A stretch of 64,000 bases of DNA from Microcoleus sp. FACHB-672 (GTDB lineage Bacteria; Cyanobacteriota; Cyanobacteriia; Cyanobacteriales; Oscillatoriaceae), in the NCBI RefSeq assembly GCF_014695725.1, contig NZ_JACJOU010000007.1:186001-250000 (forward strand), given 5' to 3'. The translations under genes and the position numbers were made by a program. The stretch's first letter is position 1. The number at the start of each line of letters is the position of its first letter. Shown here piece by piece: positions 3,918 to 62,496 of the stretch. The notes under the pieces were generated by a model, which was not told the origin of the DNA, did not search any database, and saw nothing but the letters and a program-made list of their open reading frames with translations.

Positions 3918-4690
3918 GCGCCGTTTTCATCTAATATCCCAGTTGAAAAATAAGGTAAAAGTGTCTTCTGTTTCTGTTGCAAACGCTACATATCCCAAAA
4001 AAAATCTGCTAATCTATCGGTGCTGCTCAACTGATTTGTAGCCGAGGAACCGAAAAATAGTCTAACTTGCCTTAGTTTATTTTCAAGCAGCTACAGATTC
4101 ACCCCAATTTCTCCTCAAATCCGGGATATTGCGCGTTTTTTTTAGGACTTAACTCAAAAGTTCTCTAAGTAAATTTGCTGTTGGTTAAAGAGGAAAAATA
4201 ATAGAATTCTCGCTATGTCTCGAGGGAACGAGCAGGAGTCATCAGCGAACTTGCTTTCTACCTGAAAAATGAACCAGACACAGGGGTAGGAGCAGAAAAA
4301 AGCAAAATTGAGGAAGACAGAGGGACAAGGAGTGGCAAAATCAAAATGAATCCTGAGCAGGAAAGCTGGATTTTAACTGAACAATGAGAAGCCAGCCGGT
4401 GAGGCAACGGGAGCATAAAGCAGGATGAGAGTTTTAATAAATAATCCCACTTTATTTTTTGTTAAATTTAAAATATTGATTTATATTTTACAGTAATTTC
4501 AGGCTATCTTTCAATTAAAGCGTGGGCTACTTCCGTGAGGCGGCTCTATTTCATATCCTGAAAAAATAAACAGCAGTTAAATAAAAGCTTTTCAAAGCAG
4601 GGCACCTGCTGCAGAGACCTTTCACAAAGCTTTTACAAAGACGCTCCGTGATTTATAAATTGTTGGCAGGGGAAACGCATTGCCGGCCCT
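3918..4690. other. Long intergenic region (773 bases)
   Basis: AT-rich spacer between the protease and the GGDEF/EAL gene, with no open frame resembling a protein. It contains purine-rich tracts around 4270-4420 and AT-rich stretches around 4440-4500. I looked for riboswitch cores (cobalamin, glutamine, c-di-GMP GEMM types) and found none. It probably holds the promoter and a long leader of the next gene. Confidence 0.4.
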
Positions 4691-8008: not shown

Positions 8009-8036
8009 AGACGCTCGAATTGAACCGAGTGGGGTT

Positions 8037-9184: not shown

Positions 9185-12100
9185 TTAAAAATTTAAACTT
9201 TCTTGCAACTCTTGCTTTACTCTTTCATACTCCATTTCCACTTGAGAGACAATTGCCGCCGCCTCTGTTATTATGCCGGTGCGTGCCATTGTTTCTAACT
9301 GCTTGCACAACTGAGCCAGAACCATTGCTCCGAGGGTTGCACTTGTGGACTTTAGTGTGTGAGCCGGCAAGTTGAGCGCTGTGGCATCTCCTTGTTCAAC
9401 TGCACGACGCAGCGCTTGCAACAGATCGACTGCATCAGTCAAATAGCTATCAATCACTATTGTCAACATTTCTGCGCTGTCTTCTCCCAGCATCTGGCGT
9501 AACTCGTTTAAAGCCTTAGAGTCAATTGCCGGGTATCTCGGTGAAGATGGAACCGTGGCAAATTCTTCGCCTCTTTTTGTCTCCCTCTCTGTCCCTCTAC
9601 CTGTATGTCCCTCTCCCTCTGTTAATCTCTCGCTCTCTTCCTTTCTTCCTCTCTCTTGCTCTACCTCTGTTACTCTCTCGCTCTCTGCTAAACTCCCGCG
9701 ATCCTGCGCTCGCTTCCTCTGCCGCACGCCTGTACTATTCTTGGGCTGACATCTCTCCAGCGCCTCAACCAACACCGGCACTCGGATCGGCTTGCTGATG
9801 TAGTCATCCATGCCAGCTTGCAGGCACATTTCCCTATCGCCTTGCATGGCATTGGCCGTCATGGCAATAATTTGGGGTCGCTGTTTTGGATCATCCCACT
9901 GTTGGCATATCTGGCGTGCGGCTTCCAAACCATCCATTTCTGGCATATGGACATCCATCAGCACCACGTCGTAAGGCTGCCGGTGCAGCGCTTCGAGGAC
10001 TTCCAACCCGTTGCCGGCAATATCTGCCCGATACCCCAGGCGCTCCAACAAATGTAGGGCAACCTTTTGGTTCACCACATTGTCCTCGGCTAACAGAATT
10101 CGCAAGGGAAGACGGGGTGCCGGTTGGGAGTTTGCCGGCGGCAGTTGCCGCTCTGGGCGCACGGAAATCGGCTGCTGGCCCAATATCTGGATCAAGACAT
10201 TGTAGAGCTGAGATTGTTTGAGGGGCTTATTGAGAAACGCCGCAAAATTGATGGGAAACTCAGAATTGGCTAAGTCTTCGCCGGCTGCGATTTCTGGCTT
10301 GCCAATCGAAGTAAACATCACCAAGGGCAATTTCTGGTAGTGAGGCAGCTTGCGGATTTGTGCTGCCAAAGTCATGCCGTCCATGTAGGGCATTTGCATA
10401 TCCAGGAAGGCAATGTCAAAGGATTCACCCCGCGCCAGCCACTCTAAACCCTCGGCACCGGAGCCGGCAGCCCAGGAGAACATTCCCCAAGCTTGCGCTT
10501 GCAGCGTCAAAATCTGCCGATTGGTGGCATTATCATCCACAATCAGCAATCGCTTGCCGGCTAAAGCATCATGATTGTCAGCCGGCAAATCAGTTTCTAG
10601 GGCGCGGGCGATGACTGTGAAATAGAAAGTCGAGCCTTGGCCCATTTGACTTTCAACCCACATTCTGCCACCCATCATGTGACTCAAGCGTTGAGAAATC
10701 ACCAAACCCAAGCCGGTGCCGCCATACTGGCGAGTTGTGGAAGCATCAACCTGGCTAAAGGGCTTAAACAGGCGCTCCATCCGATCTTCAGGAATGCCGA
10801 TGCCGGTGTCTGTAATCGCAAATTGAATTTCGTAGGTTAATTCTTTGGCTTCATTGGCATCTGCCAAAGGAGAAGAAATCGCAGAGGCTGTCACCGAAAC
10901 TACCACTTCGCCTCTCTGAGTAAACTTAACGGCGTTGCTGAGCAGATTCACCAAGATTTGGCGTAGCCGAGTCACATCCCCGATACACACAGCCGGCGTC
11001 GGTGGCAAAATCAGATAGGCGAGTTCAAGACCTTTTTGGGCCGCCCTAGGAGCCAGCAAATCCAGAGATTCCTCTACACAGGAACGGAGATTGAAGGGAT
11101 GAGCCTCGATATCCAGCTTGCCCGACTCAATTTTAGAAAAATCGAGAATGTCGTTAATAATGCTGAGCAACGCTTCGCCACTGGTACGGATGGTTTCGAC
11201 AAAGTCTTGCTGTTCAAGACTTAGCTGGGTATCGAGCATCAAGCCGGTCATGCCGATCACAGCATTCATGGGGGTTCTGATTTCGTGGCTCATCATGGCC
11301 AAAAACTCACTTTTAGCCCGGTTGGCGGCATCCGCTGCTTGTTTGGCTTGCTCTAAAGCTAAATTATGCTCGGCAAGCTGCTGTCGCTGCTGAGTTTCTT
11401 GCTCCAGCAATTGAGCTTGCGCTAAGGCAATGCCGACTTGAGCAGCGACAGCTTCGAGCAGCTCAATTTCATCTTGCCCCCACCGGCGGAAACGATCACA
11501 TTGGTGCAAGCCAATGATTCCGTTGGGTTCTCCTTTATAAGAGGTGCGAATGGCCAGCATGGATTTCAGGCCCATTTGGCGACAAAGATCGGCACCGGCT
11601 TGCAGCAGAGGATCTGAAAAAACATCAGGCGAGGCATTTGCCCGATCCTGAGCGATAATTTGCTCAGCGTGGGGGTTGCCCGTCACCGGCACTTGGGTTT
11701 CTAAATCTAAAAATGATTGATACCCCGGTTCTAAATACTCGGCTACCAATGGAATTTGAGCCGTTGGCGTTGCGATATAGCTGTGAATTAAACAGCGATT
11801 CACCCCAAATGCGCTTCCTAGCAGCGTAGCGGTGGTTTGGAAAATTTGGTGTGTGTCTAAGCTTTGGCGAATTTCTTGGGTAACTTTTCCCAGCAGGAGA
11901 CTACGTTGAAGCTGCCGGTGTAGGGCAGTTTGGGCGCTGTCACGCTCAATTTCACCGCCAATCCATTGTGCCATCAGTTTGAGCAGTTCTTTTTCGACTG
12001 CTTTAACCGGGTTGTGGCGGGGTGTGGGACTACAGAAACTGAGGATGCCATAAAGGTAGCCGGCAACCATCACCTTCGCTCCCACATAAGCTTCTATCTG

Positions 12101-15061
12101 CCGTGCTGTGTAGGCTGGATGATAGCGCCATTCGGTTGCAGAAGCGAACTCAAAACAGATCGGTTCAGTTGCCTGTGCGGTTTCCCGGAAATAGGTTTGC
12201 TCTAAGTTAAAGGCATCTCCCTTAAGCATTTTCATCGGGGTATTTTCTGGCAATCGAGCTGCAATCACTTCACAGTATTCTTCTCGGATACGGCCTAAGA
12301 TGCCAATCTCCAGATTAAACCGGCTACAACCCATTTCCAGCAGATGTTGGGCTTTCCCGTCAAAGTTCATATCTGGGGTGGCAGTCACGGTATACAGCGC
12401 TCGAATTGCCGCTTCACTTTCTCGCAGTTCTTCTTCTGCTAATTTGCGCTCTGCGAGTTCAGTTTTTGCTTGCTCGAAGAGGGTAGACTGCTGAATGGCG
12501 ATCGCGAGTTGTACGCTGAGTTGCTTGAGCAAGACAATTTCGTTCGATCTCCACCGGCGCGGTTCATTGCAGTGATGGGCAATGAGTAACCCCCATAAGT
12601 TTTCGCCTTGCAAAATCGGCACAACTAAGTTGGCTCTAACTTGATACTGGGAAAGCAGATCTATATGGGGCTGGTTAAGTTCTGCTGTATAAATATCTTC
12701 AATCGCCGCAATGCGATTGTGCTTGTACAGTTTTACATGAGTTTCCCCAAAGCAAGGGTCGTTGATATTGGCTCCTAAAGTTTGGCTCCAACCCTCACCA
12801 ACGGACTCTACCTGTACGAAACCACTCCAATCTGGGAGAAAGCGGTAAATAACGGTCCGGTCGGTTTTGAGAAATTGCCGCACTTCTGCTACTGCAGTAT
12901 TAAGCACTTCTTCGAGGTCTAAAGATTGGCGGATGCGCTGGGCAATTGTTCCGACTAAGTGTTCTCTTAAAAATTGCTGACGTAATGATTCTTCTGCCTG
13001 CCGGCGCTCTGTGATGTCGTTGAGGGTGCCGCCAGTGCCGACGATTTGGCCGGCTGCATCGAGCTTGACACGGGCGCATACTTCTACCCAGCGAAACGTG
13101 TTAATCCCTTCATTTTCCCCATATCGAGAGCAAGAAATAAGGCAATTTTCTGTGTTCGTCAGGTATCTCACCTCATACCGGCACTCGTCTTTTTTCCCTT
13201 CCACCAGCCATTGAAACAACTCGCGATTGTTTTGCCGGTCATCGGGATGAACGTATTTTAAAAAGTGCGTACCTAAGCTTTCTTCGATTGAAAAGCCGGT
13301 AATTTCACTCCAAGCAGGGTTAAGAAATGTCCACGATCCCTCTGCGTCTGTCTGGAAAATCACTTCTCTAACACTCTCAACGACTGAGCGATATTGGTTT
13401 TCGCTCTCCCGCAGCGCCGCCTCTGCTTGTTTGCGCTCGGTAATGTCGTGAGCAACGGCGTACATCAGCCCCTGTTCTACAAATGGGGTGGCGTTCCACA
13501 ACACCCATCTATAAGAGCCATCTTTACAGCGATAGCGATTTTCAAAGGAAATCGTCGCGGCTCCTTGGGCTATTTTCTCCGCTTCGGCAATGGTTGCTTC
13601 CTGGTCGTCGGGATGCACAAAGTCCAGGTAGGGTTGACTTTTTAAAGTTTTTATCGAGTGGCCCAAGGTTTCTTCCCAAGCAGGGTTGAGCTGCTTGAAA
13701 TAGCCATCAAACCCAATCACGCAAAGCATATCCACGGAAAGGGTGAAAAACCGATCCCGATCTTCCTCTGCCTGCTTGCGTTCGGTAACGTCCTCAACAA
13801 CATAAGAAAACCGTTCTTGACCACCGGCTGCTGTGGGGATGGAGCAAACTGTTGCAGATAACCACCGGCTGCTGATACCAGTATTGTGCGTATATTCAAA
13901 GTGGACTGGAGAGCGATTGTGCTGGCTTTGCCGGTAGTAGCTACTCCACAAGCGCACATACTCTTTTGGTGCCCCCATTTCGGTTGCTAGCCGGTTTCGC
14001 ATTGCTTCCGGGGTGAGGCCGAAAAGCTCAGCCGTTGCTGCGTTATCAGAGATATGTAGGATGTCATCATCCCGCAACTCGACAATGCCCATCATCATGG
14101 TGGCACTATCAAAGAAACTGCGAAGCGTTGATTCACTTTCTCGCAGTGCTGCCTCCGCCTGCTTGCTTTCCGTGATATCTGTGGCGATCCAGATCAATCC
14201 CTGACCGAGATCTCCCACCGGCGTCGCTCGATTTTCATAGTGTACAGACGTGCCTTGAGGCGTCTGGACCGCTGAAATCCAAGTGCCTTCTTCGCCCTGC
14301 AAAACGCGCTGAAGATTGGTTAAAATTTCTGGCTGATTGCGATATATCTCAAAGATAGAATGTCCGACGAGTTCCCCAGAGCCAAATCCCAAAGATTCCA
14401 ATCCTTTCCCTTCTGAAAGTGCGATCACGCCATTACTATCTAAGGCATACAGAATAATGGGGGCATTGGTGACAACCGTGCGAAGCGTGGATTCACTTTC
14501 TTGGAGTGCTGCTTCAGCTCGCTTTTTTTCTTGAATTTCTTTGATTAACTGTTCGTTGGTTGTCTCTAATTCGGCTGTGCGTTCTCTCACCCGTTCTCCT
14601 AATTGAGCGTTAAGGGTGCGAATTTGTTCTTCTGCTTGCCGGCGTTCGCCGACTTCTTTTTGCAGGGTTTTGTTAACTAAGTCAAGCTGGATCGGGCTGG
14701 AAAGGCCCAAAGCGTTGGGCATTAATGGCACAAGCAATGCTGCTGTCAGCAACGATATGGCTGCGGTGATCGCGTTGATGAAAGTTGCAACCCAGTAATC
14801 TGGGTGCCAAAGCACCCACACTGATATCAGGTGGGTCGTGCCACCGGCAATGATGAAACTGCCAATGAGCAAAAAGATCCATCGAAAGGGCGCATCTTGT
14901 CGCTTACGGATAAAATAAACGAGCAGCAGGGGAATTGCGTAATAGGACAGCGCGATCAGCAACTCTGAAAGCACCTGCAGCCACACCAGCCCGCTATTCC
15001 ACAGGTAGCAATCACCTTGAGGAAGAAAGTTGTTTGAAAAAAAGGTTTTTATTAATTCCAC
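9185..15061 (-). CDS. Hybrid histidine kinase with ethylene-receptor-like membrane domain, PAS, GAF, REC and HPt modules
   Basis: A 1958-residue phosphorelay kinase starting at a GTG. Residues 1-125 form a three-helix membrane domain homologous to the ethylene-binding domain of ETR1 and its cyanobacterial homologues ([16 protein letters not shown]... and THLISVW). Then come a coiled coil (130-190), about four PAS domains (190-690), three GAF domains (700-1230; GRWR/RRW-type cyanobacterial GAFs), HisKA with [14 protein letters not shown], HATPase ([19 protein letters not shown]), two receivers ([11 protein letters not shown] and [11 protein letters not shown]) and an HPt domain ([12 protein letters not shown]). 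Before the HPt lies a Glu/Arg/Ser-rich linker encoded by a CT-rich simple-sequence tract. The residue equal to the copper-binding Cys65 of ETR1 is Gly73, while His77 is retained, so ethylene binding is doubtful. Confidence 0.92.
9560..9700. repeat. CT-rich (GA-rich) simple-sequence tract inside the hybrid kinase gene
   Basis: The plus strand is built of CTCTC, CCCTCT and CTCTGT words for about 140 bases. On the coding strand it encodes an Arg/Glu/Ser/Gly-rich, low-complexity linker between the second receiver and the HPt domain. Length is compatible with the reading frame. It resembles the simple-sequence runs seen in the spacers of this window. Confidence 0.75.
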
Positions 15062-51786: not shown

Positions 51787-52104
51787 ATGGAAGGAATAGT
51801 AATGACATTTAAAGCTAGTTGTAACACCGGCTTGGTTGAAGCATGGGTCGAGCAATGGCTTGTCCCCCAATTACACCCAGAGCAAGTGGTGGTGATTGAT
51901 AATGCCAGTTTTCATAAGTGTGCGGCGATTCAACAAGCCATTGAGCAAGCCGGATGCACCCTGCTATTTCTGCCGCCATACTCCCCTGACTTAAACAAGA
52001 TTAAGAAGTTTTGGGCACGGCTCAAGCACTACCTGTGTAAAACCCTAAACCAATTTGAGAATTTCTGGGAGGCCGTGGATAATGCCTTCAAGTCTTTGTC
52101 CTAA
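51787..52104 (+). mobile_element. IS630-family transposase remnant
   Basis: A C-terminal piece (105 residues) of an IS630/Tc1-type DDE transposase. The second aspartate block is present (VVVIDNASFHK), but the DDE glutamate block reads PDLNKIKKFW instead of PDLNPIEKFW, so the catalytic glutamate is lysine; the N-terminal two thirds are missing. It is inactive. The tail overlaps the end of the araC-like gene on the other strand by 17 bases. It marks the left edge of a foreign-looking island (about 51.8-62.4 kb). No terminal inverted repeat pair was found around it. Confidence 0.88.
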
Positions 52105-53128
52105 CCAACCCTTCAACTGCAATAGCAGTCTCCCTAGTAGCTTCTCGCAACCGCTCCACATCACGCATTGGTGGTGCACCAAAGAGGCGCTTGTACTCCC
52201 GGTTGAAGTGCGAGGCATCGTCATAACCCACACGGTAAGCAGCACTGCTAGCATCAAGGTTTTGCCCCAGCATCAGACGGCGAGCCTCCTGGAGCCGCAG
52301 TTGCTTCTGGAACTGCAGGGGACTCATTGCAGTGACAGACTTGAAGTGATGGTGAAAGCCCGAGACACTCATTCCCAGCTCTCGTGCGATGCTTTCAATC
52401 CGAAGCGGCTGGTTAAAGTCTTTACGAAGTCGATCAACGGCTCTAGCAATTTGGTGGGTAGAGCCACCCAGAACTGCAATCTGATGGAGCCGATTCCCTT
52501 GCACTCCCATCAAGAGCCGGTAGATAATCTCCCGCTTAATCAGAGGTGCGAGCACATGCGCTTTAGCCGGGGAATCGAGCAACCTGACGAGCCGCACGAC
52601 AGCATCTAACAGATCTACATCCAACGGACTGACGTCGATTGCTTTGACACTAGCACCCCTTTGGGCTGAGGGATAGCCTGCCTCAACCATGGCTGAGCCA
52701 ACTAGAGTAGGGTCAAGATCGAAACGAAGACCCAGGTACGGTTTTTCCTGGGTTGCTTCTAGAATTCGGCTGGCAATCGGCAGTTCGACCGTCCCCAGCA
52801 AATAATGCATTGGGTCGTACTGATAGCGATCACTGCCTAGAAGGACTTCTTTGCTGCCTTGAGCAATCGCACAAAAGGCAGGAATAGACACACTATGAAA
52901 GCATTCCGAAGGGTAGGAGGCGCGATAGAAGTGTAATCCTTTCAGCGACTCGATCGCTCCATCTTGACGAATCGCTTGGGCAATTCGCTCCGTTAGTTCC
53001 TCTCGGTTGGCTTGCGCTCGGTCTGCCTCGCGCTTTGTCTGAAAGTCATTCATCAAGGCTCTACCAGACTTTTCACTCGTTCTTGCAGCGTTCATTTCTT
53101 GTGCCTGCTCAAATAGATTTATGGACAC
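52088..53128 (-). CDS. AraC-family transcriptional regulator (AraC_N plus HTH)
   Basis: A regulator of up to 346 residues with the AraC_N sensory domain (about 60-210: YRASYPSECFHSVSIPAFCA, SKEVLLGSDRYQYDPMHYLL) and a C-terminal double helix-turn-helix (about 232-330: SIARELGMSVSGFHHHFKSV, PLQFQKQLRLQEARRLM). This is the arrangement of YqhC-like activators that respond to reactive aldehydes. ATG 53128 is the longest start; ATG 53053 (MNDFQTKREADRAQ) fits the family better. It is divergent from a truncated cupin start at 53459, and its 5' end is duplicated at 57496. It probably activates the detoxification genes downstream. Confidence 0.88.
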   Translation of the reverse strand: MSINLFEQAQEMNAARTSEKSGRALMNDFQTKREADRAQANREELTERIAQAIRQDGAIESLKGLHFYRASYPSECFHSVSIPAFCAIAQGSKEVLLGSDRYQYDPMHYLLGTVELPIASRILEATQEKPYLGLRFDLDPTLVGSAMVEAGYPSAQRGASVKAIDVSPLDVDLLDAVVRLVRLLDSPAKAHVLAPLIKREIIYRLLMGVQGNRLHQIAVLGGSTHQIARAVDRLRKDFNQPLRIESIARELGMSVSGFHHHFKSVTAMSPLQFQKQLRLQEARRLMLGQNLDASSAAYRVGYDDASHFNREYKRLFGAPPMRDVERLREATRETAIAVEGLVRTKT

Positions 53129-53513
53129 ATCAAGGTAAAGACAAGGGTTTGGCAGCTAAGCCTGTATAAGAATCTAGCGTGACTTGAATTGAATCTGGTG
53201 CAAGGCGTGCAGGATTGTACAACCATCCTAGACAATCATCCTATTGCTTGCCTTTCAGGATTCATAGAATGAGGTTAAAGCAATGAAACGTGATTCCGGC
53301 TTCTTGTAAACGTCTGGATTTCTCTTCAAGAGAACACTCAAGTTTATTTAGTTAAGCGCTTCTTGCGATTGCACGAGAAGCCTCATCAAATCCACAGCAG
53401 GCATTGGTCGCTGTGGTCAAGCTTTGCATGGGCGTTGCACAACTATGGAGGAACAGAAATGAAACGGCTCACGATACCTGTCATGGCATTTTCCTTATTG
53501 GCTTTGGGGTTCG
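53014..53513. repeat. 500-base direct repeat, copy A
   Basis: Matches copy B (57496-57993) with an offset of about 4480 bases. It covers the araC 5' end, the divergent promoter region and the cupin signal-peptide codons. The araC-side half shows more substitutions plus a one-base deletion in B; the cupin-side half (from about 53210) is almost identical. Confidence 0.95.
53219..53243 (+). promoter_or_regulatory. Candidate AraC-type direct-repeat operator (copy A)
   Basis: ACAACCATCCTA and ACAATCATCCTA stand in tandem with a 13-base period in the araC-cupin spacer. AraC regulators usually bind two direct half-sites. The same sites recur at 57699-57723 in copy B. Confidence 0.45.
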
Positions 53514-53518
53514 CCTAA
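53459..53518 (+). pseudogene. Truncated cupin gene start
   Basis: An ATG with a GGAGGA site begins [19 protein letters not shown] and then hits TAA. The first 18 residues are identical to the signal peptide of the intact cupin at 57939, so this is the broken end of the duplicated copy. Confidence 0.9.
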
Positions 53519-53548
53519 GCTTCAATAGCTTTTATATCAGTACACCTG

Positions 53549-53720
53549 TATAGAACCCATTTGGGATCTTTTCTTAAAGCACAAGGGAGGCAGGAAAGCC
53601 GTTTGAAGCAACCTAACAACCAAGAGCTATAAAAGTATAGAGAAATTACTGCAAAAAAGATGAAACCCGGATAGGTATTAAGCTTGCGATTGCAGCAGAA
53701 GATGTCAAATGGGTTCTATA
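53549..53720. mobile_element. Candidate MITE (172 bases)
   Basis: TATAGAACCCATTTG (53549-53563) and its exact reverse complement (53706-53720) bound a 172-base segment with no gene; imperfect similarity continues inward (ATCTT in both arms). The outer TA on each side fits TA target duplication as in IS630/Tc1 elements. It sits just inside the repeat-bracketed block. Confidence 0.55.
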
Positions 53721-53815
53721 GAAGTTGACAATACTTAATCACAGTGGAAGTGTTTTACAAGGGTGGTAAAGTTTCAGTGGATAGAGTCAGTCAACCTTAT
53801 TTCTAAGTAGCATCT

Positions 53816-54715
53816 ATGAAGCGTCGTAACTTCTGCCTTTATTCAGCTTTATTTGTTGTGTCGGGCTGCACAACCGCTACGACACAATCCTCTAATCCTT
53901 TTCAGAGTCCCTCTCCCTTCAGCAAACTAGAGAAGTTAAGGTTTGCTGTTTCTGATGTCAAGGGTCTAGAAGATTTGAAAAAAGATTACGAACCGTTACG
54001 GTTACTTCTGACAAAGATTCTGGAAACCAAGGTAGAATTCGTTCCCGTAGACAGCTATATTGCAGTGGTGTCTGCTCTCCAACAGGATCAGGTTGACCTA
54101 GTATTTACAGGCCCGTCGGAGTATGTGGTGATGCGTGCCCGGACGAATGCGGTTCCCATTGCCGCCATTGAGCGGCAAAATTACTACTCGATCCTTGCAA
54201 CTAGATCGAACAGTGGAATCAAGTCAGTGCAGGATCTAAAGGGCAAAACCATTGCCCTGTGGGAGCTTGGCTCAACTAGCGGCTATTTAGGCCCGATTAA
54301 ATTACTGATTGATGCGGGATTAGATCCTAAAGTTGACGTGACCATCAAGCTTTTAGGCAAAAAAGGACTGCCTGCCTTAAAGAACGGGGATGTGGACGCT
54401 TGGGGCGGCGGCTTTGTGCGTCACGAAAAATTCCTGAAAGATGAAAAAATGACCGCAACTGACTTACCGATCTTGGCGAAAGGGGTTTCATTACCCTCCG
54501 ATCCCTTTGTGTTGAATAGTAAGCTAGAAGCTGGTTTAGTAGCCAATATCCAGCAACGCATTTTTCAGAATCAAGCCGAGATTCTAGCAGTGATCGCTCC
54601 AGTCGATGGTGCTAAGTTTACAGGGGGCAAGATGATTGAAATTCAAGATACAGACTTTGACGTAATTCGGCAGGTCTATAAGGTCATGGGACAAGGCGCT
54701 TTCCTACAAGGTTAA
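53816..54715 (+). CDS. PhnD-like phosphate/phosphonate-type substrate-binding lipoprotein
   Basis: A 299-residue periplasmic binding protein. The leader MKRRNFCLYSALFVVSGC is a lipoprotein signal with lipobox VSGC. The mature part is the PhnD type: LRFAVSDVKGLEDLKKDYEP, VDLVFTGPSEYVVMRART, SVQDLKGKTIALWELGSTSG and LKNGDVDAWGGGF. There is no ABC permease or ATPase nearby; instead a histidine kinase follows 164 bases downstream, so this protein probably presents a ligand (phosphite, phosphonate or other anion) to the kinase rather than feeding a transporter. The fold is clear, the ligand is not. Confidence 0.85.
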   Translation: MKRRNFCLYSALFVVSGCTTATTQSSNPFQSPSPFSKLEKLRFAVSDVKGLEDLKKDYEPLRLLLTKILETKVEFVPVDSYIAVVSALQQDQVDLVFTGPSEYVVMRARTNAVPIAAIERQNYYSILATRSNSGIKSVQDLKGKTIALWELGSTSGYLGPIKLLIDAGLDPKVDVTIKLLGKKGLPALKNGDVDAWGGGFVRHEKFLKDEKMTATDLPILAKGVSLPSDPFVLNSKLEAGLVANIQQRIFQNQAEILAVIAPVDGAKFTGGKMIEIQDTDFDVIRQVYKVMGQGAFLQG

Positions 54716-54879
54716 GCAGAAAATGTAGGAGAATTCCCCTCGATTTGGCATGGTGTGTCCGGAACATCGATAAAGTTAGTTCCATTTGAAGATGGATTGA
54801 CCCGGATATAAATAGGCTGAGAAGAGAAACTTTCCAGGTTCTCCCCTGCCAACGGGATACTAATTGTTCGAGGTGAAGC

Positions 54880-56712
54880 ATGCAAACGTTTTTGAGAATT
54901 CTCCAGCCCTATGTAGGACGTTTAGGAATTGCTAAAAAAATTGCCTATGGATATTCTCTAGCCATTGGTGTAGCAGTTACAGGAGCAACAGTCGGGTTGG
55001 TGGTAGGTGATTATTATCAGCAACAAGCCCTAGCTCGATTAGAGATTGCCTATGAGCAAGAAGATCTAGTCGGCAGCTTAGCTAGGGAAACATCGGCGAT
55101 TCGCGCCCATCCCCAACGGCTGATGATGGTGTTAGGCGATCCGATCTGGTTTGACTTGGAGCGATCTCGGCTATTAGGGCATGTTACGCAAATCCAAGCT
55201 CTCTCTTCTAAACTTCAGGAATTTATTGACCAGCATCCTACATCCCTGGTGATGCCCCAGCAGGATTTTCAGCGGTTCATCCAAACCTATCAAGCTACGA
55301 CGACTGCCTATAAACAATGGGCAGAAATGACTTGGCAGCAGTTTCACCCTGCGGATCTTTCACAACCCTCCATATCCAAGGCCCAGCAAGATTTATTAGC
55401 AACCCTACGGAAAGACTCGTTCCTTACCTTAGAGATCAAGTTTGACCGCTTTACCGAACAACTGGATCGAAATCTCAAAGCGGCTCAAAATCAACGCTTA
55501 GTAGCCACCTCTGAGATGGAAGCAGCAGAAGCTCTACGCATAAAAATTATCCTGATCAGTATGGGCGGAGCCGTGCTGTTGGCCGTTGTCCTAGCAATTC
55601 TGACAGGTCGAGTTATTGCTCGTCCCATTGAAGCCATCACGAAGATTGCCCAACAGGTGTCGCGTGAATCAAACTTCACCCTGCAAGTTCCTGTCACCAC
55701 CAAAGATGAGATGGGAACCCTGGCAATTTCGTTTAACAGCCTGATTCAACAAATAGACAAGTATACCCATGAGTTAGAGCTGAGCCGCGACACCTTGGAA
55801 GACCGAGTAGAGGCGCGAACGCAGGAACTTCAGCAAGCCCTTGACCATCTTCGGCAAGCCCAATCTCAATTAGTGCAAGCCGAGAAGATGTCTAGCCTAG
55901 GACAGCTTGTGGCGGGAGTAGCCCACGAAATTAATAATCCCGTCAACTTTATTCATGGCAATTTAATCCATGCCAATCAATACATCCAAGATTTACTGGA
56001 ACTCCTTACCCTCTACGATCGCCAGTACCCTGATTCCACTCTGGATATCCAAACTAAAGTAGAGGATATTGATCTGGAGTTTTTACGGGAAGATTTACCG
56101 AGGATCTTGCGCTCTATGCAAGTAGGTACAGAACGAATTCGTGAAATTGTGCAATCGTTACGCAATTTCTCCCGTCTGGATGAAGCAGAAATTAAGACCG
56201 TTGAGATCCATGAGGGCATTGATAGCACCCTGATGATTCTCCAAGGTCGGCTCAAGGCTAATAGTCAACGTCCCACCATTCAAGTGCTCCGAGACTATGG
56301 TTCTTTACCGCTGGTAGAGTGCTATGCCGGACAGTTAAATCAGGTGTTTATGAACATTCTGACCAATGCGATTGATGCCTTGGAGGAACGGGATACGAAG
56401 CGATCGCCCACTGAATTAAGTCAGCATCCTAGTCAAATTACGATCCGGACTGAAGCAGTCGCGGATCAAGTGGTGATTCGCATTGCGGATAATGCGCTAG
56501 GGATGCCGGAAGAAGTTCAGAAGCGATTGTTCGATCCCTTCTTCACCACCAAAGCAGTGGGGAAAGGCACTGGGTTGGGAATGTCGATTAGCTATCAGAT
56601 TGTCACAGAAAAGCATGGCGGGTCTCTAACCTGCATTTCAGAACTGGGACAAGGCACAGAGTTTGTGATTCAAATTCCGCAACCCGCCTCCCTATCTTTG
56701 GCCCGTTCATGA
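54880..56712 (+). CDS. Membrane sensor histidine kinase with HAMP domain
   Basis: A 610-residue kinase. One membrane helix near residues 20-45 (GYSLAIGVAVTGATVGLVVG), a periplasmic helical domain (46-220), a second helix (223-245, IKIILISMGGAVLLAVVLAI), HAMP (246-300), a coiled coil, and a kinase core with the phospho-acceptor histidine in LGQLVAGVAHEINNPVNFIH, N-box NILTNAIDALEE and the G-boxes GKGTGLGMSISYQIV. The VAHEINNPVNFI type is common in cyanobacteria. GAGGTGA lies seven bases before the ATG. No response regulator follows. It probably works with the PhnD-like lipoprotein upstream. Confidence 0.9.
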   Translation: MQTFLRILQPYVGRLGIAKKIAYGYSLAIGVAVTGATVGLVVGDYYQQQALARLEIAYEQEDLVGSLARETSAIRAHPQRLMMVLGDPIWFDLERSRLLGHVTQIQALSSKLQEFIDQHPTSLVMPQQDFQRFIQTYQATTTAYKQWAEMTWQQFHPADLSQPSISKAQQDLLATLRKDSFLTLEIKFDRFTEQLDRNLKAAQNQRLVATSEMEAAEALRIKIILISMGGAVLLAVVLAILTGRVIARPIEAITKIAQQVSRESNFTLQVPVTTKDEMGTLAISFNSLIQQIDKYTHELELSRDTLEDRVEARTQELQQALDHLRQAQSQLVQAEKMSSLGQLVAGVAHEINNPVNFIHGNLIHANQYIQDLLELLTLYDRQYPDSTLDIQTKVEDIDLEFLREDLPRILRSMQVGTERIREIVQSLRNFSRLDEAEIKTVEIHEGIDSTLMILQGRLKANSQRPTIQVLRDYGSLPLVECYAGQLNQVFMNILTNAIDALEERDTKRSPTELSQHPSQITIRTEAVADQVVIRIADNALGMPEEVQKRLFDPFFTTKAVGKGTGLGMSISYQIVTEKHGGSLTCISELGQGTEFVIQIPQPASLSLARS

Positions 56713-56751
56713 GCATTAGCATGAAGCAATGAGTCTGCCAAAATTTTAGGG

Positions 56752-56769
56752 GAGGGTTGAAAAACCCTC
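56752..56769. terminator. Possible hairpin after the histidine kinase gene
   Basis: GAGGGTT and AACCCTC form a 7-base stem with a 4-base loop, followed by AAAAAT; there is no T-run, so termination is uncertain. Confidence 0.35.
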
Positions 56770-56823
56770 AAAAATAACCCCTCACCAACCCCAAAATTAC
56801 AAATTCAGAATTGACAACCCCCT

Positions 56824-57465
56824 ATGGATTGGCAGGAAGTAGCAGTAAACTGGGTTTTAATTCCCCCTCGATAGGTGGCGATTCTGCATTTTCTGGGGGG
56901 TGCCTTTGTGGCGACGGCTCCCCATGTCACCTATCGGTTGCTATTGGAGGATCTGAGTCGTCAAGGCTATGTAGTGATTGCCACGCCGTTTGTGAATACC
57001 TTTGATCACCGAGCGATCGCCCAGCAGGTGTTCCAAAACTTTAACCCAGGCGTAGAAACCCTCTAAGATGGGGGACTGTTGCAGAAGTGCCATCTCCCAA
57101 TTTATGGGCTAGGTCACAGTATGGGCTGTAAGTTGCACCTCCTGATTGGCAGCTTAGCCAAAGTAGAATGAGCCGGAAATATCCTCATTTCTTTCAACAA
57201 TTTCCCCGCTCGGAAGTCAATCCCCTTCCTAGATAAATTCTCCACTCCGTTTCCAGTGGAGTTTACCCCCTTGCCCTTGGAAACCGACGTAATCATTGCT
57301 GAACGTTATCAAATCCGTCGCAATCTGTTAATTAAATTCACCAAGGATGACCTGGATCAAACCCTAGGCTTATACGACATTATCCAAGACTGCTTTCCAG
57401 AGATGGTGACGCTCAAGCAACTCATCGGTAGTCATACGACTCCTCTAGGCCAAGATATTGGTTAG
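56824..57465 (+). pseudogene. DUF1350 family gene, inactivated
   Basis: A DUF1350 (cyanobacterial/plastid alpha/beta-hydrolase-like) gene with several lesions. From ATG 56824 it reads MDWQEVAVNWVLIPPR then a TAG; it continues as VAILHFLGGAFVATAPHVTY and IATPFVNTFDHRAIAQQVFQ, ends at TAA near 57064, shifts frame (LPIYGLGHSMGCKLHLLIGS), meets a TGA near 57170 and goes on as NILISFNNFPARKSIPFLD and VEFTPLPLETDVIIAERYQI to a TAG at 57463. At least two stops and a frame change make it dead, yet similarity remains high, so the decay is recent. Confidence 0.9.
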
Positions 57466-57495
57466 AAAGCAGGGCAGACTTTTACACCGTTGGAT

Positions 57496-57993
57496 GCACT
57501 CGCTCTACCTCGCGCTTTGTCTGAAGGTCATTCATCAAGGCTCTACCAGACTCTTCACTCATTCTTGCAGTGTTCATTTCTTATGCCCGTCAGATAGATT
57601 TATAGGCCCATCAAGGTAAAGACAAGGGTTTAGCTGCTAAACCTGTAAGAGAATCTAGCGTGGCTGGAATCGAAATCGGTGCAGGTTTGCAGGATTGTAC
57701 AACCATCCTAGACAATCATCCTATTGCTTGCCTTTCAGGATTCATAGAATGAGATTAAAGCAATGAAACGTGATTCCGGCTTCTTGTAAGCGTCTGGATT
57801 TCTCTTCAAGAGAACACTCAAGTTTATTTAGTTAAGCGCTTCTTGCGATTGCACGAGAAGCATCATCAAATCCACGGCAGGCATTGGTCGCTGTGGTCAA
57901 GCTTTGCATGGGCGTTGCACAACTATGGAGGAACAGAAATGAAACGGCTCACGATACCTGTCATGGCGTTTTCCTTATTGGCTTTGGGGTTCC
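57496..57993. repeat. 500-base direct repeat, copy B
   Basis: Second copy of the segment at 53014-53513. It keeps a decayed fragment of the araC 5' end (57496-57600) and the promoter region of the intact cupin gene, and ends within the cupin signal-peptide codons. Confidence 0.95.
57699..57723 (+). promoter_or_regulatory. Candidate AraC-type direct-repeat operator (copy B)
   Basis: ACAACCATCCTA and ACAATCATCCTA in tandem, as in copy A, about 215 bases upstream of the intact cupin start; this copy would control the working operon. Confidence 0.45.
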
Positions 57994-58442
57994 CGCAGGC
58001 AGGGCATACACAAGTCTCATCTGGCGATCGCGCACAGACCGTGGAAATCACGCGGAATGGTTCGCAGCCTTCCACTGAAGGATCTGCCGAATATTTCACG
58101 GGTTCTGTCCGCATCAATCCTCTTTTTCCGGTGCACGATCCATCACGCGCCTCTGGCGCAAGTGTCACCTTCAAGCCTGGTGCGCGCACAGCGTGGCATA
58201 CCCATCCCCTGGGGCAAACCCTCATCGTGACGGCTGGAGTTGGTTGGGTTCAGCAATGGGGCGGTCAAGTTCAGGAGATCAGACCTGGTGATGTCGTCTG
58301 GATTCCGCCAGGTGTAAAGCACTGGCACGGAGCTACAGCAACTACAGCCATGACCCATATTGCTATTCACGAACAACTCGACGGCAGGGTCGTGGACTGG
58401 ATGGAACAGGTCAGTGACGAGCAGTACAGAGGAAGATCTTAA
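57939..58442 (+). CDS. Exported cupin-domain protein
   Basis: A 167-residue protein. A signal peptide ([20 protein letters not shown], cleavage near GHTQ) precedes a single small-barrel cupin with the metal motif [12 protein letters not shown] and the second motif GVKHWHGA. Such cupins in AraC-controlled clusters are usually quercetinase- or isomerase-like metal proteins without proven substrate. The start is ATG 57939 with a GGAGGA site; longer frames upstream run through the repeat. Its stop overlaps the ATG of the next gene (TAATG), indicating translational coupling. Confidence 0.88.
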
Positions 58443-58978
58443 TGCTTTTGAGATGGCGTGCCATTAAGGGAAAAAATTGTCAGAAAAGAATGCTGATTTT
58501 GGTTCTCGCCGTATTGATGTCCCTGAGTGACTCAGCCTGCCGTGCCGATAACAGTATGACCATCAGCACCCCGTCAAAGATACCAAATGAAATATCAACC
58601 GAGCGGGCAAACAGTATGAAGATAAACATCAAGGTCGGAGACAAAGTTGTGACAGCCACTTTGATTGACAGCAAAACCACTGGGGATTTTGTTTCCCTGC
58701 TGCCATTAACGCTGACGATGAACGATTTGTTTGGAAGAGAAAAGTTTGCCCACCTGCCGAGAGCGATTTCGCAGGAGGGAGAGCGAACCAAAACTTATGA
58801 AGTTGGAGATGTCATTTACTGGTCTCCTGGTCCTGATGTGGCTATTTATTATCGCCATGACGGACAGGAAATCCCCGACCCCGGCATCATCGTGCTCAGC
58901 AAGATAGATGCTGGCATCGAGGCATTTAATACCCCTGACTCTGTAGAAGTGACAATCGAGCTTGTTCCATCGCCATAA
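58442..58978 (+). CDS. Exported cyclophilin-like fold protein
   Basis: A 178-residue protein whose ATG overlaps the cupin stop. The N-terminus has a basic stretch and a hydrophobic core (MLILVLAVLMSLSDSAC), possibly a lipoprotein signal ending at that cysteine; an internal ATG at 58490 would start directly at the core. The mature C-terminal 120 residues (MKINIKVGDKVVTATLIDS, LPLTLTMNDLFGREK, YEVGDVIYWSPGPDVAIYY) match the bacterial cyclophilin-like fold family found beside such operons. No peptidyl-prolyl isomerase active-site pattern is obvious. Function unknown. Confidence 0.75.
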   Translation: MLLRWRAIKGKNCQKRMLILVLAVLMSLSDSACRADNSMTISTPSKIPNEISTERANSMKINIKVGDKVVTATLIDSKTTGDFVSLLPLTLTMNDLFGREKFAHLPRAISQEGERTKTYEVGDVIYWSPGPDVAIYYRHDGQEIPDPGIIVLSKIDAGIEAFNTPDSVEVTIELVPSP

Positions 58979-58999
58979 AGAGGGTGATCTGCCTGCACT

Positions 59000-59040
59000 G
59001 TGGACTGAATGGAACAGGTCAATGACGAGCAATACCAAGC
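59000..59040 (+). pseudogene. Remnant of a cupin gene 3' end
   Basis: The sequence GTGGACTGAATGGAACAGGT and its continuation match the 3' end of the intact cupin (coding [12 protein letters not shown]) with a stop created at the tryptophan. It is too short to code for anything. Confidence 0.8.
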
Positions 59041-59046
59041 ACCAAT

Positions 59047-59117
59047 ATGAAGTACCGCTTCCTGATTGATATGGCCTCCCTTAAATCCGAATAACCGAGG
59101 TGAAGCCTCGCAGGATT
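59047..59117 (+). pseudogene. Remnant of an alcohol dehydrogenase 3' end
   Basis: Codes MKYRFLIDMASLKSE then stop, the same tail as the complete dehydrogenase (VKYRFCIDMASLKSE), and similarity continues past the stop (ATAACCGAG). Confidence 0.85.
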
Positions 59118-59155
59118 AACAATTCAAACGCGCAAAGACAGGAAACAGCAATTTA

Positions 59156-59215
59156 GAAGTTTGCTTCGTCATTGATATGGCCCCGCTGAAGGCAGAGGCA
59201 TCGAACCAAAGCTAA
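59156..59215 (+). pseudogene. Second remnant of an alcohol dehydrogenase 3' end
   Basis: Reads EVCFVIDMAPLKAEASNQS then stop, a diverged copy of the same dehydrogenase tail. It lies 35 bases before the alpha/beta hydrolase start. Confidence 0.72.
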
Positions 59216-59249
59216 TCCGCTAGATAAACCCACACAGATGGAGAACTCA

Positions 59250-60335
59250 ATGAAAAACCGCATTCTAATACCAACCCTCTTGATTAGTGCAATCTGCACA
59301 ACGGCGGCATTTGCACTTGACAAAACACACGTCTCGCGTAAGGTCTCCCAAGCACCCGTGCAGCAGTCCGCTGTGGTCGAGGGGGCGGACAACTTCTACA
59401 AGAGCGACAAGGTGACCATGCAAAAGGTGACATTCAAAAACCAATACAACATGCAGGTTGCCGGGAATCTCTTCATTCCCAAAGCCTTAAATCAGAACGC
59501 CAAGAATCCGGCAATCATTGTCGGGCACCCCATGGGCGCAGTCAAAGAACAAAGCTCGAATCTGTATGCCCAAAAACTGGCTGAACAGGGATTCATCACC
59601 TTGTCCCTCGATTTGTCCTTCTGGGGCGAGAGCGAGGGGAGTCCGCGAAACCTCATCGCGCCAGAGATTTATGCCGAGGACTTCAGCGCAGCAGTGGACT
59701 TCCTGGGCACCCGACCATTCGTGGACAGAGACCGGATCGGTGTTCTTGGGATTTGCGGCAGCGGGAGCTTCGTTATCAGCGCCGCCAAGATCGACCCCCG
59801 CATCAAGGTCGTCGCGACTGTGAGTATGTACGACATGGGCGCGGCGGCTCGCAATGGGCTTAGGAAGTCGGTGACCGCCGAGCAAAGGAAGCAGATGATC
59901 GCTGCGGCGGCGGAGCAGCGTTACGTGGAGTTCACGGGCGGCGAGACCGCCTACGTGGGTGGAACGACGAACGAACTGACGGCGAGCACCGACCCGGTTC
60001 AGCGCGAGTTCTTCGACTTCTACCGGACTCCCCGGGGCGAGTTCACACCGAAAGGCTCGTCTCCCGAGCGGACGACGAAGCCGACGCTGACCAGCGTCGT
60101 GCGGTTCATGAACTATTACCCGCTTGAAAGGATCGAGGAGATCGGTCGTCCGCTGCTCTTTGTCACCGGCACAGAAGCCCACTCCCGGGAGTTCAGCGAG
60201 GACGCCTACAACCGCGCTGTCGAGCCGAAGGAGATCGTCCGGGTTCCGAATGCGGGACACGTCGATTTGTATGACCGGGTGAACCTTATCCCCTTTGACA
60301 AGCTCACATCCTTTTTCACCCAACATCTGAAATAG
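59250..60335 (+). CDS. Exported alpha/beta hydrolase (dienelactone-hydrolase/YcjY-like)
   Basis: A 361-residue hydrolase with signal peptide MKNRILIPTLLISAICTTAAFA. ATG 59250 with GGAG upstream is preferred to ATG 59238. The nucleophile elbow reads GVLGICGSGSF, with a cysteine at the position used by dienelactone hydrolase; the oxyanion region is IIVGHPMGA and the catalytic histidine is in NAGHVDLYD. It may open lactones or cleave esters. The first third has backbone-like codons, but from about 59,700 on the gene is clearly GC-rich with G/C third positions, unlike most of the window. The antisense frame stays open over 840 bases, a by-product of this composition. Confidence 0.85.
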   Translation: MKNRILIPTLLISAICTTAAFALDKTHVSRKVSQAPVQQSAVVEGADNFYKSDKVTMQKVTFKNQYNMQVAGNLFIPKALNQNAKNPAIIVGHPMGAVKEQSSNLYAQKLAEQGFITLSLDLSFWGESEGSPRNLIAPEIYAEDFSAAVDFLGTRPFVDRDRIGVLGICGSGSFVISAAKIDPRIKVVATVSMYDMGAAARNGLRKSVTAEQRKQMIAAAAEQRYVEFTGGETAYVGGTTNELTASTDPVQREFFDFYRTPRGEFTPKGSSPERTTKPTLTSVVRFMNYYPLERIEEIGRPLLFVTGTEAHSREFSEDAYNRAVEPKEIVRVPNAGHVDLYDRVNLIPFDKLTSFFTQHLK

Positions 60336-60365
60336 GGTGAAGCAAGAAACAAGGTAAAAAATCCC

Positions 60366-61127
60366 ATGAACAATCAGAACTTTACAGGCAAGGTAGCCTT
60401 TGTCACCGGAGCAGCAAACGGCATTGGTCGAGCTACAGCGCTAGCGTTTGCACGCGAAGGCGCGGCAGTGGTAGTCGCTGACATTTCAGAACAGGGCAAT
60501 CAAGAAACGGCTCGTATGATTGAGGAACTCGGCGGACGGGCGATCGCCGTCAAGTGCGACATAACACGAACCGAGGACGTGAAGGCAGCCCTGGATCAGA
60601 CCATTGAGACCTTCGGGCGACTGGACTTTGCCTTCAACAACGCCGGTGTGGAACAGAAGCTAGCGGCGGCGGCGGAACTGGATGAGGCGGAGTGGGATCG
60701 CATAGTCAACATCAACTTGCGTGGCGTGTTCCTGTGCCTGAAGCACGAAATCCCGCTGATGCAAAAGCTTGGGGGCGGTGCGATCGTGAATACCTCTTCA
60801 GGTGCTGGAGTCAAAGGCTTCAAAGGTCAAGCTGCTTACGTGGCTGCAAAGCACGGCGTGGTCGGACTGACCAAGGCAGCCGCTCTCGACTATGCCGCGC
60901 AGAACATTCGCATTAACGCTGTGTGTCCCGGAATCATCGACACCCCGATGATGGATCGCTTCAGCGGCGGCACTTCCGAAGGACAAGAGCGAGTGATCTC
61001 GCAGGAACCAATTGGCAGGATGGGTCAACCCGAAGAGATCGCCAATGCCGTCGTCTGGCTGTGTTCGGATGCGTCCTCCTTCGCCGTCGGGCACGCCCTG
61101 GTCATTGATGGCGGTCAAACGGTGTAG
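60366..61127 (+). CDS. Short-chain dehydrogenase/reductase (SDR)
   Basis: A 253-residue classical SDR. The cofactor motif TGAANGIGRATA, the NNAGV stretch, the catalytic serine (NTSSGAG), YxxxK in AAYVAAKHGVVG and the PG motif in AVCPGIIDTPMMDRF are all present. It should use NAD(H) or NADP(H) on an alcohol or ketone; the acid after the second strand (VVVADISEQ) favours NAD(H). It lies 30 bases after the hydrolase gene in the same direction, so they are probably one transcript. Confidence 0.93.
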   Translation: MNNQNFTGKVAFVTGAANGIGRATALAFAREGAAVVVADISEQGNQETARMIEELGGRAIAVKCDITRTEDVKAALDQTIETFGRLDFAFNNAGVEQKLAAAAELDEAEWDRIVNINLRGVFLCLKHEIPLMQKLGGGAIVNTSSGAGVKGFKGQAAYVAAKHGVVGLTKAAALDYAAQNIRINAVCPGIIDTPMMDRFSGGTSEGQERVISQEPIGRMGQPEEIANAVVWLCSDASSFAVGHALVIDGGQTV

Positions 61128-61210
61128 TGATGTTCCTCGCCAACCCGATAAAACCCTAAACGCACGACAACAAAGCATTGTCGCTATCGTCACCTTCACC
61201 GCCAAGGGCG

Positions 61211-61318
61211 ATGACTCATATCGCTACTCAGAAGGTACTCGACGGCAAACCCGTGGACTGGCTGAAAAAAGTCAGCGACGAACAATACCAGGACAGATTC
61301 AAGAGCGAGTATAAGTAA
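61211..61318 (+). pseudogene. Remnant of a second cupin gene 3' end
   Basis: The frame reads [20 protein letters not shown], continuing [15 protein letters not shown] then stop, clearly homologous to the end of the intact cupin ([20 protein letters not shown]). The 5' part of this copy is missing. It sits between the SDR and the alcohol dehydrogenase. Confidence 0.88.
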
Positions 61319-61352
61319 ACCAGCTTATCTTCCAGATTGGAGCATCAATATT

Positions 61353-62414
61353 ATGTACAACGCCAAAGCTTACTCCGCAGCCAGTGCGACCGCACCGCTC
61401 GCTTCCGACACAATCGCACGGCGCGATCCAACCGAACATGATGTTCAGATCGAAATCCTTTTCTGCGGCATCTGTCACTCGGACGTCCATTCGGTGCGTA
61501 ATGAGTGGAGCGACTTCATGTCTACTACCTACCCAATCGTCCCCGGTCATGAGATCGTCGGACGGGTCACTGAGGTTGGCTCGGCAGTGACGAAGTACAA
61601 GCCCGGTGATCTCGCGGCGATCGGCTGTATGGTCGATTCGGATAGTACCTGTCCCCATTGCAAAGCTGGCTTTGAGCAGTTTTGCCAAAATGTAATCTTC
61701 ACCTACAACTCCCCAGACAAGCACAAGACTGCTCCAGTCACCTATGGTGGCTACTCTGATAGCGTCGTCGTCGATGAACGCTTCGTTCTGCGCGTTCCAG
61801 ATAACCTCGCTCTCGCCGGGGTTGCGCCGCTCCTCTGCGCCGGCATCACTACCTACTCGCCTCTGCGCCACTGGGGCGTCACTAAGGGCAAGAAGGTCGG
61901 CGTAGTAGGTCTTGGCGGGCTGGGACACATGGGCGTGAAGTTCGCCCGTGCGTTCGGTGCCCACGTTGTCGTCTTCACCACCTCGCCCGCTAAGACGGAA
62001 GATGCGCTCCGCCTCGGTGCCCACGAAGTGGTGGTCTCCCGCAATGCCGACGAGATGCAGAAGCACGCTGGTAGCTTTGATTTCATCCTCGATACCGTCT
62101 CCGCCAATCACGACATCAACGCCTATCTCAACCTGCTTCGCCTTGACGGCAACATCACTCTTGTCGGCGCACCCGAAAAGCCAATGGATATCGCGGCATT
62201 CAGCCTGATCGTGGGTCGTCGGAGTCTCTCCGGGTCTATGATCGGTGGAATTGCCGAAACCCAGGAGATGCTCGACTTTTGCGGCGAACATAACATCACA
62301 GCCGATGTTGAAGTCATCCCCATCCAAAAAGTTAACGAAGCTTACGAAAGACTGCTCAAGTCCGATGTGAAATACCGCTTCTGTATCGATATGGCATCTC
62401 TTAAATCTGAATAA
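61353..62414 (+). CDS. Zinc-dependent NAD(P) alcohol dehydrogenase (YahK/cinnamyl-alcohol type)
   Basis: A 353-residue medium-chain dehydrogenase. Catalytic zinc ligands are in CGICHSDVH and PGHEIVG; the cofactor motif is VGVVGLGGLGHMGVKFARAF. The structural-zinc lobe reads DSDSTCPHCKAGFEQFC, with aspartate where most relatives have the first of four cysteines. Such enzymes reduce aldehydes with NADPH, matching a detoxification operon under an AraC regulator. The C-terminal tail YRFCIDMASLKSE is repeated as debris further upstream. GC content is higher than in the flanking genes. Confidence 0.92.
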   Translation: MYNAKAYSAASATAPLASDTIARRDPTEHDVQIEILFCGICHSDVHSVRNEWSDFMSTTYPIVPGHEIVGRVTEVGSAVTKYKPGDLAAIGCMVDSDSTCPHCKAGFEQFCQNVIFTYNSPDKHKTAPVTYGGYSDSVVVDERFVLRVPDNLALAGVAPLLCAGITTYSPLRHWGVTKGKKVGVVGLGGLGHMGVKFARAFGAHVVVFTTSPAKTEDALRLGAHEVVVSRNADEMQKHAGSFDFILDTVSANHDINAYLNLLRLDGNITLVGAPEKPMDIAAFSLIVGRRSLSGSMIGGIAETQEMLDFCGEHNITADVEVIPIQKVNEAYERLLKSDVKYRFCIDMASLKSE

Positions 62415-62496
62415 CCGAGTGGAACCTCGAAGGAGTAATACCCAATTCGGTTAATTGTGACTCTTTTTTTGGGGAGTGTACAGTCGGCAATTCGGG

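Follow-up and report, generated by a model that had tools for sequence, protein, structure and literature searches.

A block of probably foreign genes between two copies of an araC promoter region in Microcoleus sp. FACHB-672

It is an open question how horizontally acquired genes join a regulator which is already present. We will start with the described systems which come closest to the locus studied here. In conjugation experiments with E. coli a PCR product for a partial duplication was obtained in 56 of 60 clones. The 14 clones sequenced had repeats of 109–950 bp, which were ascribed to integration of a truncated circle by single crossover (PMC3240628). Our locus is similar, as a piece of the target occurs twice, on either side of the incoming DNA, with repeats of 500 and 536 columns in the two cases which we describe. 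In comparison with the E. coli clones it is natural and old, it probably joins diverged alleles, its promoter half has probably been homogenised, and the event is read from the sequence.

Homology-facilitated illegitimate recombination has been proposed for the effector modules of the Vibrio T6SS, which may become stacked (PMC5361080). They share with our locus a 5' anchor, a new module in front of it and an old remnant shifted downstream. However the remnant is different: here it is a regulator fragment with a whole promoter, which still precedes an intact operon. The merodiploids found upon transformation of pneumococcus are also comparable, since there too duplications arise when partly homologous DNA is taken up. 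They span about 100–900 kb, with IS861-derived repeats as borders in the case described (PMC3784515), whereas here 0.5 kb is repeated around a block which is probably foreign. With respect to the regulator, YqhC is described as being of AraC-N type and acts on yqhD-dkgA in E. coli (PMC8262776). When compared by domain class alone it is similar to ours, an AraC_N-type regulator beside oxidoreductase genes, but the operon is another one.

These kinds of recombination are already known. We rate as new the recurrent, homogenised form which duplicates a promoter. In the literature that we looked at (titles and the start of abstracts) we found no match for cyanobacterial promoter duplication with horizontal gene transfer, nor for conversion between duplicated bacterial promoters.

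The repeat pair and the genes around it

The window is the whole stretch of 64,000 nt which we have analysed. A preliminary description of it mentioned a direct repeat of about 500 bases around a group of genes. The existence of this repeat is confirmed. Copy A (53013-53512) and copy B (57495-57992) have 93.4% identity over 500 columns and differ by 33 substitutions in all. They can be divided into gapless pieces of 300 nt (98% identical), 93 nt (91%) and 94 nt (84%), with a spacing of 4480–4482. Both copies hold the 5' end of araC (about 27 codons), the spacer with the promoter and the start of the cupin gene, as the preliminary description had claimed. Copy A has the whole araC gene to its left, and its approximately 18 cupin codons belong to a frame which ends in TAA. 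Copy B has a fragment, araC', on one side and, on the other, the first part of a cupin gene which is intact. No third copy was found in the 6.37-Mb genome, where 40 of 93 candidates and then 15 of 20 were scored. Among 80 araC loci a self-match is present in 23, and only L121 repeats in direct orientation a stretch which spans the araC start. In locus L125 a spacer piece of 79 nt is repeated.

The spacer between araC and cupin has a conserved core, detected by column conservation in 82 distinct segments which include the two of the window. It is found on the forward strand at 53208-53345 in copy A and at 57688-57825 in copy B, in the latter case in front of the intact operon. The core of copy A contains a 13-nt direct repeat, ACAACCATCCTAG/ACAATCATCCTAT (53219-53244), which is a candidate operator; no match to the sigma-70 consensus was found in this core. 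The spacer might also have encoded a conserved leader peptide, MKRDSGFL followed by a stop. This idea was discarded: the peptide recurs, but it is variable in length and in its stop, and by the pattern used it is missing from many loci.

The content of the block between the copies is that given in the preliminary description. It begins with a segment of 182 nt (53544-53725) with inverted ends of 27 nt which are 85% complementary and a DNA fold z of -3.05. This segment was found as a single copy in the genome, so that the term MITE expresses a likeness only. Then come two open frames in the forward strand, a PhnD-like substrate-binding lipoprotein (53816-54715; Pfam Phosphonate-bd 5e-37, NCBIfam TIGR01098 above its cut-off) and a histidine kinase with HAMP, HisKA and HATPase domains (54880-56712). 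The last element is a broken DUF1350 gene, also in the forward strand (56823-57500), with 67–68% DNA identity over its length to DUF1350-type genes. The family name comes from Pfam, which assigns it to a relative of this gene, an open frame elsewhere in the same genome. The gene is truncated at an illegitimate joint with araC', where only a short imperfect stretch is shared (57485-57503): in 6 out of 6 comparisons the DUF1350 homology stops at 57497-57500, and from there on the sequence is that of araC.

In 29 of 35 other loci PhnD has a relative of the kinase at a distance of up to about 1.5 kb, though some of these kinase matches are weak. With the window 36 loci were counted, six of them without kinase; the weaker loci L043–L049 were left out of the count. 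Since PhnD and a kinase are a common pair, it is reasonable to read the block as sensory. These two genes are its only sense frames of at least 70 aa, hence neither a transposase nor an integrase is found among them. A transposon or MITE was rejected as carrier of the block, because the inverted ends enclose only the 182 nt given above and no second copy of the element was found in the genome. Site-specific integration was rejected too: the repeat has 500 nt and is diverged, it is not a short identical core, and the two sense frames contain no integrase.

We have searched 388 genomes of the order for the components of the block. The nearest PhnD has 65% amino acid identity and its neighbouring kinase 59%. 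For DUF1350, with two candidates scored per genome, the best match has 68% DNA identity over the length of the gene, and up to 76% is reached over about 200 nt. No donor came to light in these searches. In the five genomes whose matches were compared by eye (G018, G039, G045, G301 and G323) PhnD and DUF1350 always lie apart, and within this scope the block was not met elsewhere without the repeat.

The araC gene is full length and lies on the reverse strand (52088-53128; Pfam AraC_N 4.3e-50, HTH_18 9.8e-22), with a probable start at an ATG near 53094. Among the best 80 of 176 relatives its protein reaches 91% amino acid identity in other cyanobacteria. Its 3' end is abutted, outside the repeat, by a C-terminal fragment of a DDE_3 transposase (51787-52104, forward strand; Pfam 6.9e-24), which we take to be of IS630 type. 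A stretch of about 241 bp (51813-52053) is without counterpart in two congeners: the homology stops at 51800/51812 and restarts at 52054.

Downstream of copy B all genes are in the forward strand. The cupin is an open frame (57939-58442; Pfam Cupin_2) above the cut-off of NCBIfam NF049940, a model of (R)-mandelonitrile lyase. It is followed by genes identified by profile matches: a cyclophilin-like protein (58442-58978), a dienelactone-hydrolase-like hydrolase or DLH (59238-60335) and an SDR oxidoreductase (60366-61127). At the end there is a zinc alcohol dehydrogenase (ADH, 61353-62414), whose nearest NCBIfam model is aldehyde reductase Ahr, below its cut-off. The oxidoreductases suggest a role in carbonyl stress for the operon of the araC regulator. 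The cupin body behind copy B (58095-58694) is 93–99% identical to the Leptolyngbya locus L065. Further downstream the closest relative becomes L056, then L065/L062 and then L169, and therefore the operon looks like a mosaic.

Loci without the block and a second case in the genus

The araC protein was used as a query, and the best 80 of its 176 relatives were taken as loci. In 7 out of 10 loci compared in detail araC, spacer and cupin are not broken by any block. They are AVDCRST_MAG81 (L056), Symplocastrum torsivum CPER-KK1 (L057), a plasmid of Scytonema NIES-4073 (L061), Phormidium tenue FACHB-886 (L062) and the loci L169, L171 and L172 of genomes G045, G121 and G323. In L056, L057 and L169 the cupin is followed by cyclophilin, DLH, SDR and ADH, in the order of the window. 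L059 and L170 have the cyclophilin ahead of the cupin, and the sequence of L058 stops inside the cupin. A survey of 83 loci places the start of the cupin match less than 700 bp from araC in 47, at 700–2000 bp in 5 and at over 2000 bp in 3; it is absent in 21, and 7 loci are too short. This agrees with the former suggestion that araC and cupin were once adjacent.

Since araC and cupin adjoin without it in these seven loci, the block with PhnD, kinase and DUF1350 is an insertion. No PhnD match was found near araC at E 1e-20 in 84 araC loci, up to 10 kb on each side, and the PhnD relatives of two congeners are only 30–32% identical. Together with the uninterrupted loci, these features argue that the genes of the block are probably foreign. 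The congener G002 has a single copy of the repeat, with araC and its promoter and no full cupin at the locus.

Another congener, G001, has at the same site an unrelated block of xanthine-dehydrogenase type, bracketed by its own repeat of araC and promoter (536 columns). On the araC side of this repeat 20 of 302 columns differ; the 217 columns that follow are free of differences, and there are five at the right edge. According to Pfam its block contains a fusion of cupin and carboxymuconolactone decarboxylase, three subunits of molybdopterin-dehydrogenase type, an XdhC-type gene and a MobA-like gene; after it come an araC 5' fragment with promoter, then SDR and ADH. A short match to the cupin N-terminus between its own copy A and the fusion gene may represent what remains of a cupin. 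Neither PhnD nor the kinase has a counterpart in this locus. As a donor, an xdh block beside araC was found, among the loci searched, only as that of G001 itself (L142), apart from one 36% match in L128. At the edge of locus L104 there is a 49% match to the MobA-like gene.

The repeated stretch is present in 41 of the 388 genomes of the order, including this one. Two araC-side copies were seen only in this genome and in G001; two candidates were scored per genome, so that additional copies could be missed. The promoter core is found in 71 of 86 loci, and two of these have more than one copy, G001 and Calothrix sp. NIES-4105. The latter has three cores. They are placed before genes for an alcohol dehydrogenase, for a cupin and for a sodium/hydrogen exchanger, the last of which is named by Pfam.

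Allele history of the two copies

The substitutions between copies A and B are unevenly distributed, 27 in 193 positions of the araC side and 6 in 307 of the cupin/promoter side (Fisher p 2e-7), as anticipated in the preliminary description: the half near the cupin is almost identical, the araC half more diverged. A first tree was built with 15 of 66 loci with a match, chosen because the match extends over more than 440 of the 502 nt. In a tree of 24 sequences seven identical ones were dropped; it retains L221, which is without most of the left half and has a long branch there. In the right half the alignment of L059, L170 and L235 is poor.

On the araC side copy A groups with L057, the Symplocastrum allele (UFBoot 93 and 95), and copy B with L065, the Leptolyngbya allele, which has the same sequence as L216 (78 and 79). 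The clearest signal is found at sites 53182-53207, where A shares with L057 states which B and most other alleles do not have. Copy B has many private changes on this side. Forcing A and B together costs 17 log units, with AU p 0.073 for 17 sequences and 0.045 for 24; with about 195 sites this is a short test, and its result is borderline. A group of A, B and L057 is not rejected (p 0.311). In the promoter half A and B are joined by the tree and fall together with L057; a topology in which A pairs with L057 and B stays outside has AU p values of 0.169 and 0.030. These trees give moderate support to the araC-side halves of A and B being two different alleles, and also to different histories of the two halves of the repeat.

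The promoter halves of A and B are 98% identical, while 6 of 7 other alleles differ from A by 9–13% in this half and L057 by 3%. These six alleles differ from A about equally in both halves. For example L217, which has here the sequence of L056, differs at 19 of 193 positions on the araC side and 28 of 306 on the promoter side (p 2e-4 versus the A-B split). The same comparison with copy A gives p values of 3e-5 to 0.003 for L169, L216, L218, L226 and L219, and 0.03 for L057. With copy B the six alleles other than L057 have p values of 4e-5 to 0.007, and L057 has 0.77: its gradient with B equals that between A and B, as expected if the promoter half of B came from a sequence of A/L057 type.

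It had been proposed that either gene conversion or selection on the promoter shaped this half. Conversion fits better than conservation, because six of the seven other alleles do not show such a gradient with A. There is a sharp tract of near identity, beyond conservation, and the repeat of G001 has the same shape. Selection was rejected as the sole cause of the 98% half, since the comparison between alleles stands against it. The promoter half has thus probably been homogenised by conversion.

Origin of the locus and its significance

A direct repeat of the target flanks the block on both sides, and one joint, that of DUF1350 with araC', has no extended homology. An insertion-duplication is recognised by this combination, in which one side is homologous and the other is joined illegitimately. 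We read the locus in this way, anchored on araC/promoter homology, with a probability of about 0.66. A foreign fragment, in which an araC-promoter-cupin start of its own lay next to the PhnD, histidine kinase and DUF1350 segment, would have recombined with the resident araC-promoter-cupin operon. The araC/promoter stretch would be the homologous side; on the other side the DUF1350 end would have been fused to the araC 5' end. This joint may have been made upon circularisation of the fragment, before a single crossover, or at integration, by homology-facilitated illegitimate recombination. The outcome would be a 500-base repeat in which the block has a different allele at either end, and gene conversion would afterwards have homogenised the promoter half. 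We infer the donor, the order of events, the conversion and the regulation from these comparisons. Integration through the shared region, as suggested in the preliminary description, fits these features.

The other suggestion made there was a tandem duplication, later partly deleted. In such a case the araC-promoter-cupin unit of the host would have been duplicated, the block would have entered one unit, the rest would have been lost and the araC fragment of B would have drifted as a pseudogene. The many private changes of B on the araC side and the near identity of the right halves agree with it, and with 17 sequences A and B on the left are not rejected as a group (AU p 0.073). However it is not well supported, as the araC-side halves look, with moderate support, like different alleles: A and L057 have common states at 53182-53207, B groups with L065 (78 and 79) and the joint group of A and B has AU p 0.045 with 24 sequences. 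The left/right ratio of A and B is also unlike that of A with all seven alleles (p 3e-5 to 0.03) and of B with six of seven. We consider this history unlikely.

A two-promoter state which this genome and G001 inherited from their common ancestor, with blocks and promoter pairs replaced later, appears less probable still. Both cases belong to one genus and one locus, and G001 is the nearer congener by its flanking DNA (92.8% versus 87.4% on the left and 91.4% versus 85.8% on the right, in overlapping stretches). But the repeat borders are different, with about 82 nt of araC versus about 300, the promoters are of different allele types, the G001 locus has nothing that matches PhnD or the kinase, and a third congener showed a single copy. 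Misassembly is unlikely, since 33 substitutions part A from B and a separately assembled congener shares the anatomy. A chimeric join at the promoter half has indeed a possible source in the 300 nt with 98% identity, which could confuse a short-read assembly; both flanks are syntenic with two congeners, which further reduces it to a very small probability.

If the locus arose by insertion-duplication, the old operon would keep an AraC-responsive promoter in copy B, while copy A would now face the PhnD/kinase pair. A wider interpretation, which we present as possible but doubtful, is that the araC promoter is a recurrent landing pad. Each capture would duplicate the promoter, a single AraC regulator would serve both old and new operons, and conversion would keep the copies identical, so that the regulon could grow in a self-maintaining way. 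The three cores of Calothrix sp. NIES-4105 might then be a further stage.

At one and the same promoter two congeners have blocks which are not alike. In both of them a copy of the promoter stands on either side of the block, and the two copies are identical or nearly so. Should both copies be active, the insertion and the regulatory connection would be made in a single step: the old operon would be left with its promoter, and the PhnD gene would be placed about 300 bp behind copy A. This locus, its uninterrupted counterparts and the second case provide the material for a direct test.

Region to the left of araC

Between araC and its left-hand neighbour there is a fragment of a DDE_3 transposase (51787–52104). 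Sequence comparison with the two congeners shows that about 241 bp of this region have no counterpart in either of them.

The promoter core in other species

In Calothrix sp. NIES-4105 the promoter core, a conserved part of the araC-cupin spacer, occurs three times, at positions 7864–8012, 9845–9996 and 13192–13285 of locus L121. The genes that these copies precede encode cupin, alcohol dehydrogenase and sodium/hydrogen-exchanger proteins. In a KSB1 bacterium (L125:11280–11358) a 79-nt piece of the araC side of the spacer is found again beyond its araC gene. The araC-cupin spacer of the window contains a short frame, MKRDSGFL* (53283–53309), which is seen again in many loci, though with variable stop and length.

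In genome G039 (L052:8296–9394) only a truncated 5' end of araC is found, and it stands before two genes, a cupin that is damaged and an alcohol dehydrogenase whose frame is open. In locus L227 (G565:C3:176514–179750) about 2.3 kb separate the promoter match from the cupin match; perhaps this is a further insertion at the same site.

Apparent mosaic features of the operon

Three fragments similar to gene ends lie between the operon genes: a cupin 3' end (59000–59035), an alcohol dehydrogenase 3' end (59042–59119) and a second cupin 3' end (61208–61288) before the alcohol dehydrogenase gene. The last one is also present in both congeners (G001 and G002) and in G045. The three fragments resemble scars left by earlier joins.

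Throughout positions 57495–62450 the nearest relative switches every few hundred bases among alleles of the Symplocastrum torsivum CPER-KK1 (L057), Leptolyngbya (L065), AVDCRST_MAG81 (L056) and G045 (L169) types, so that the operon has the appearance of a patchwork.
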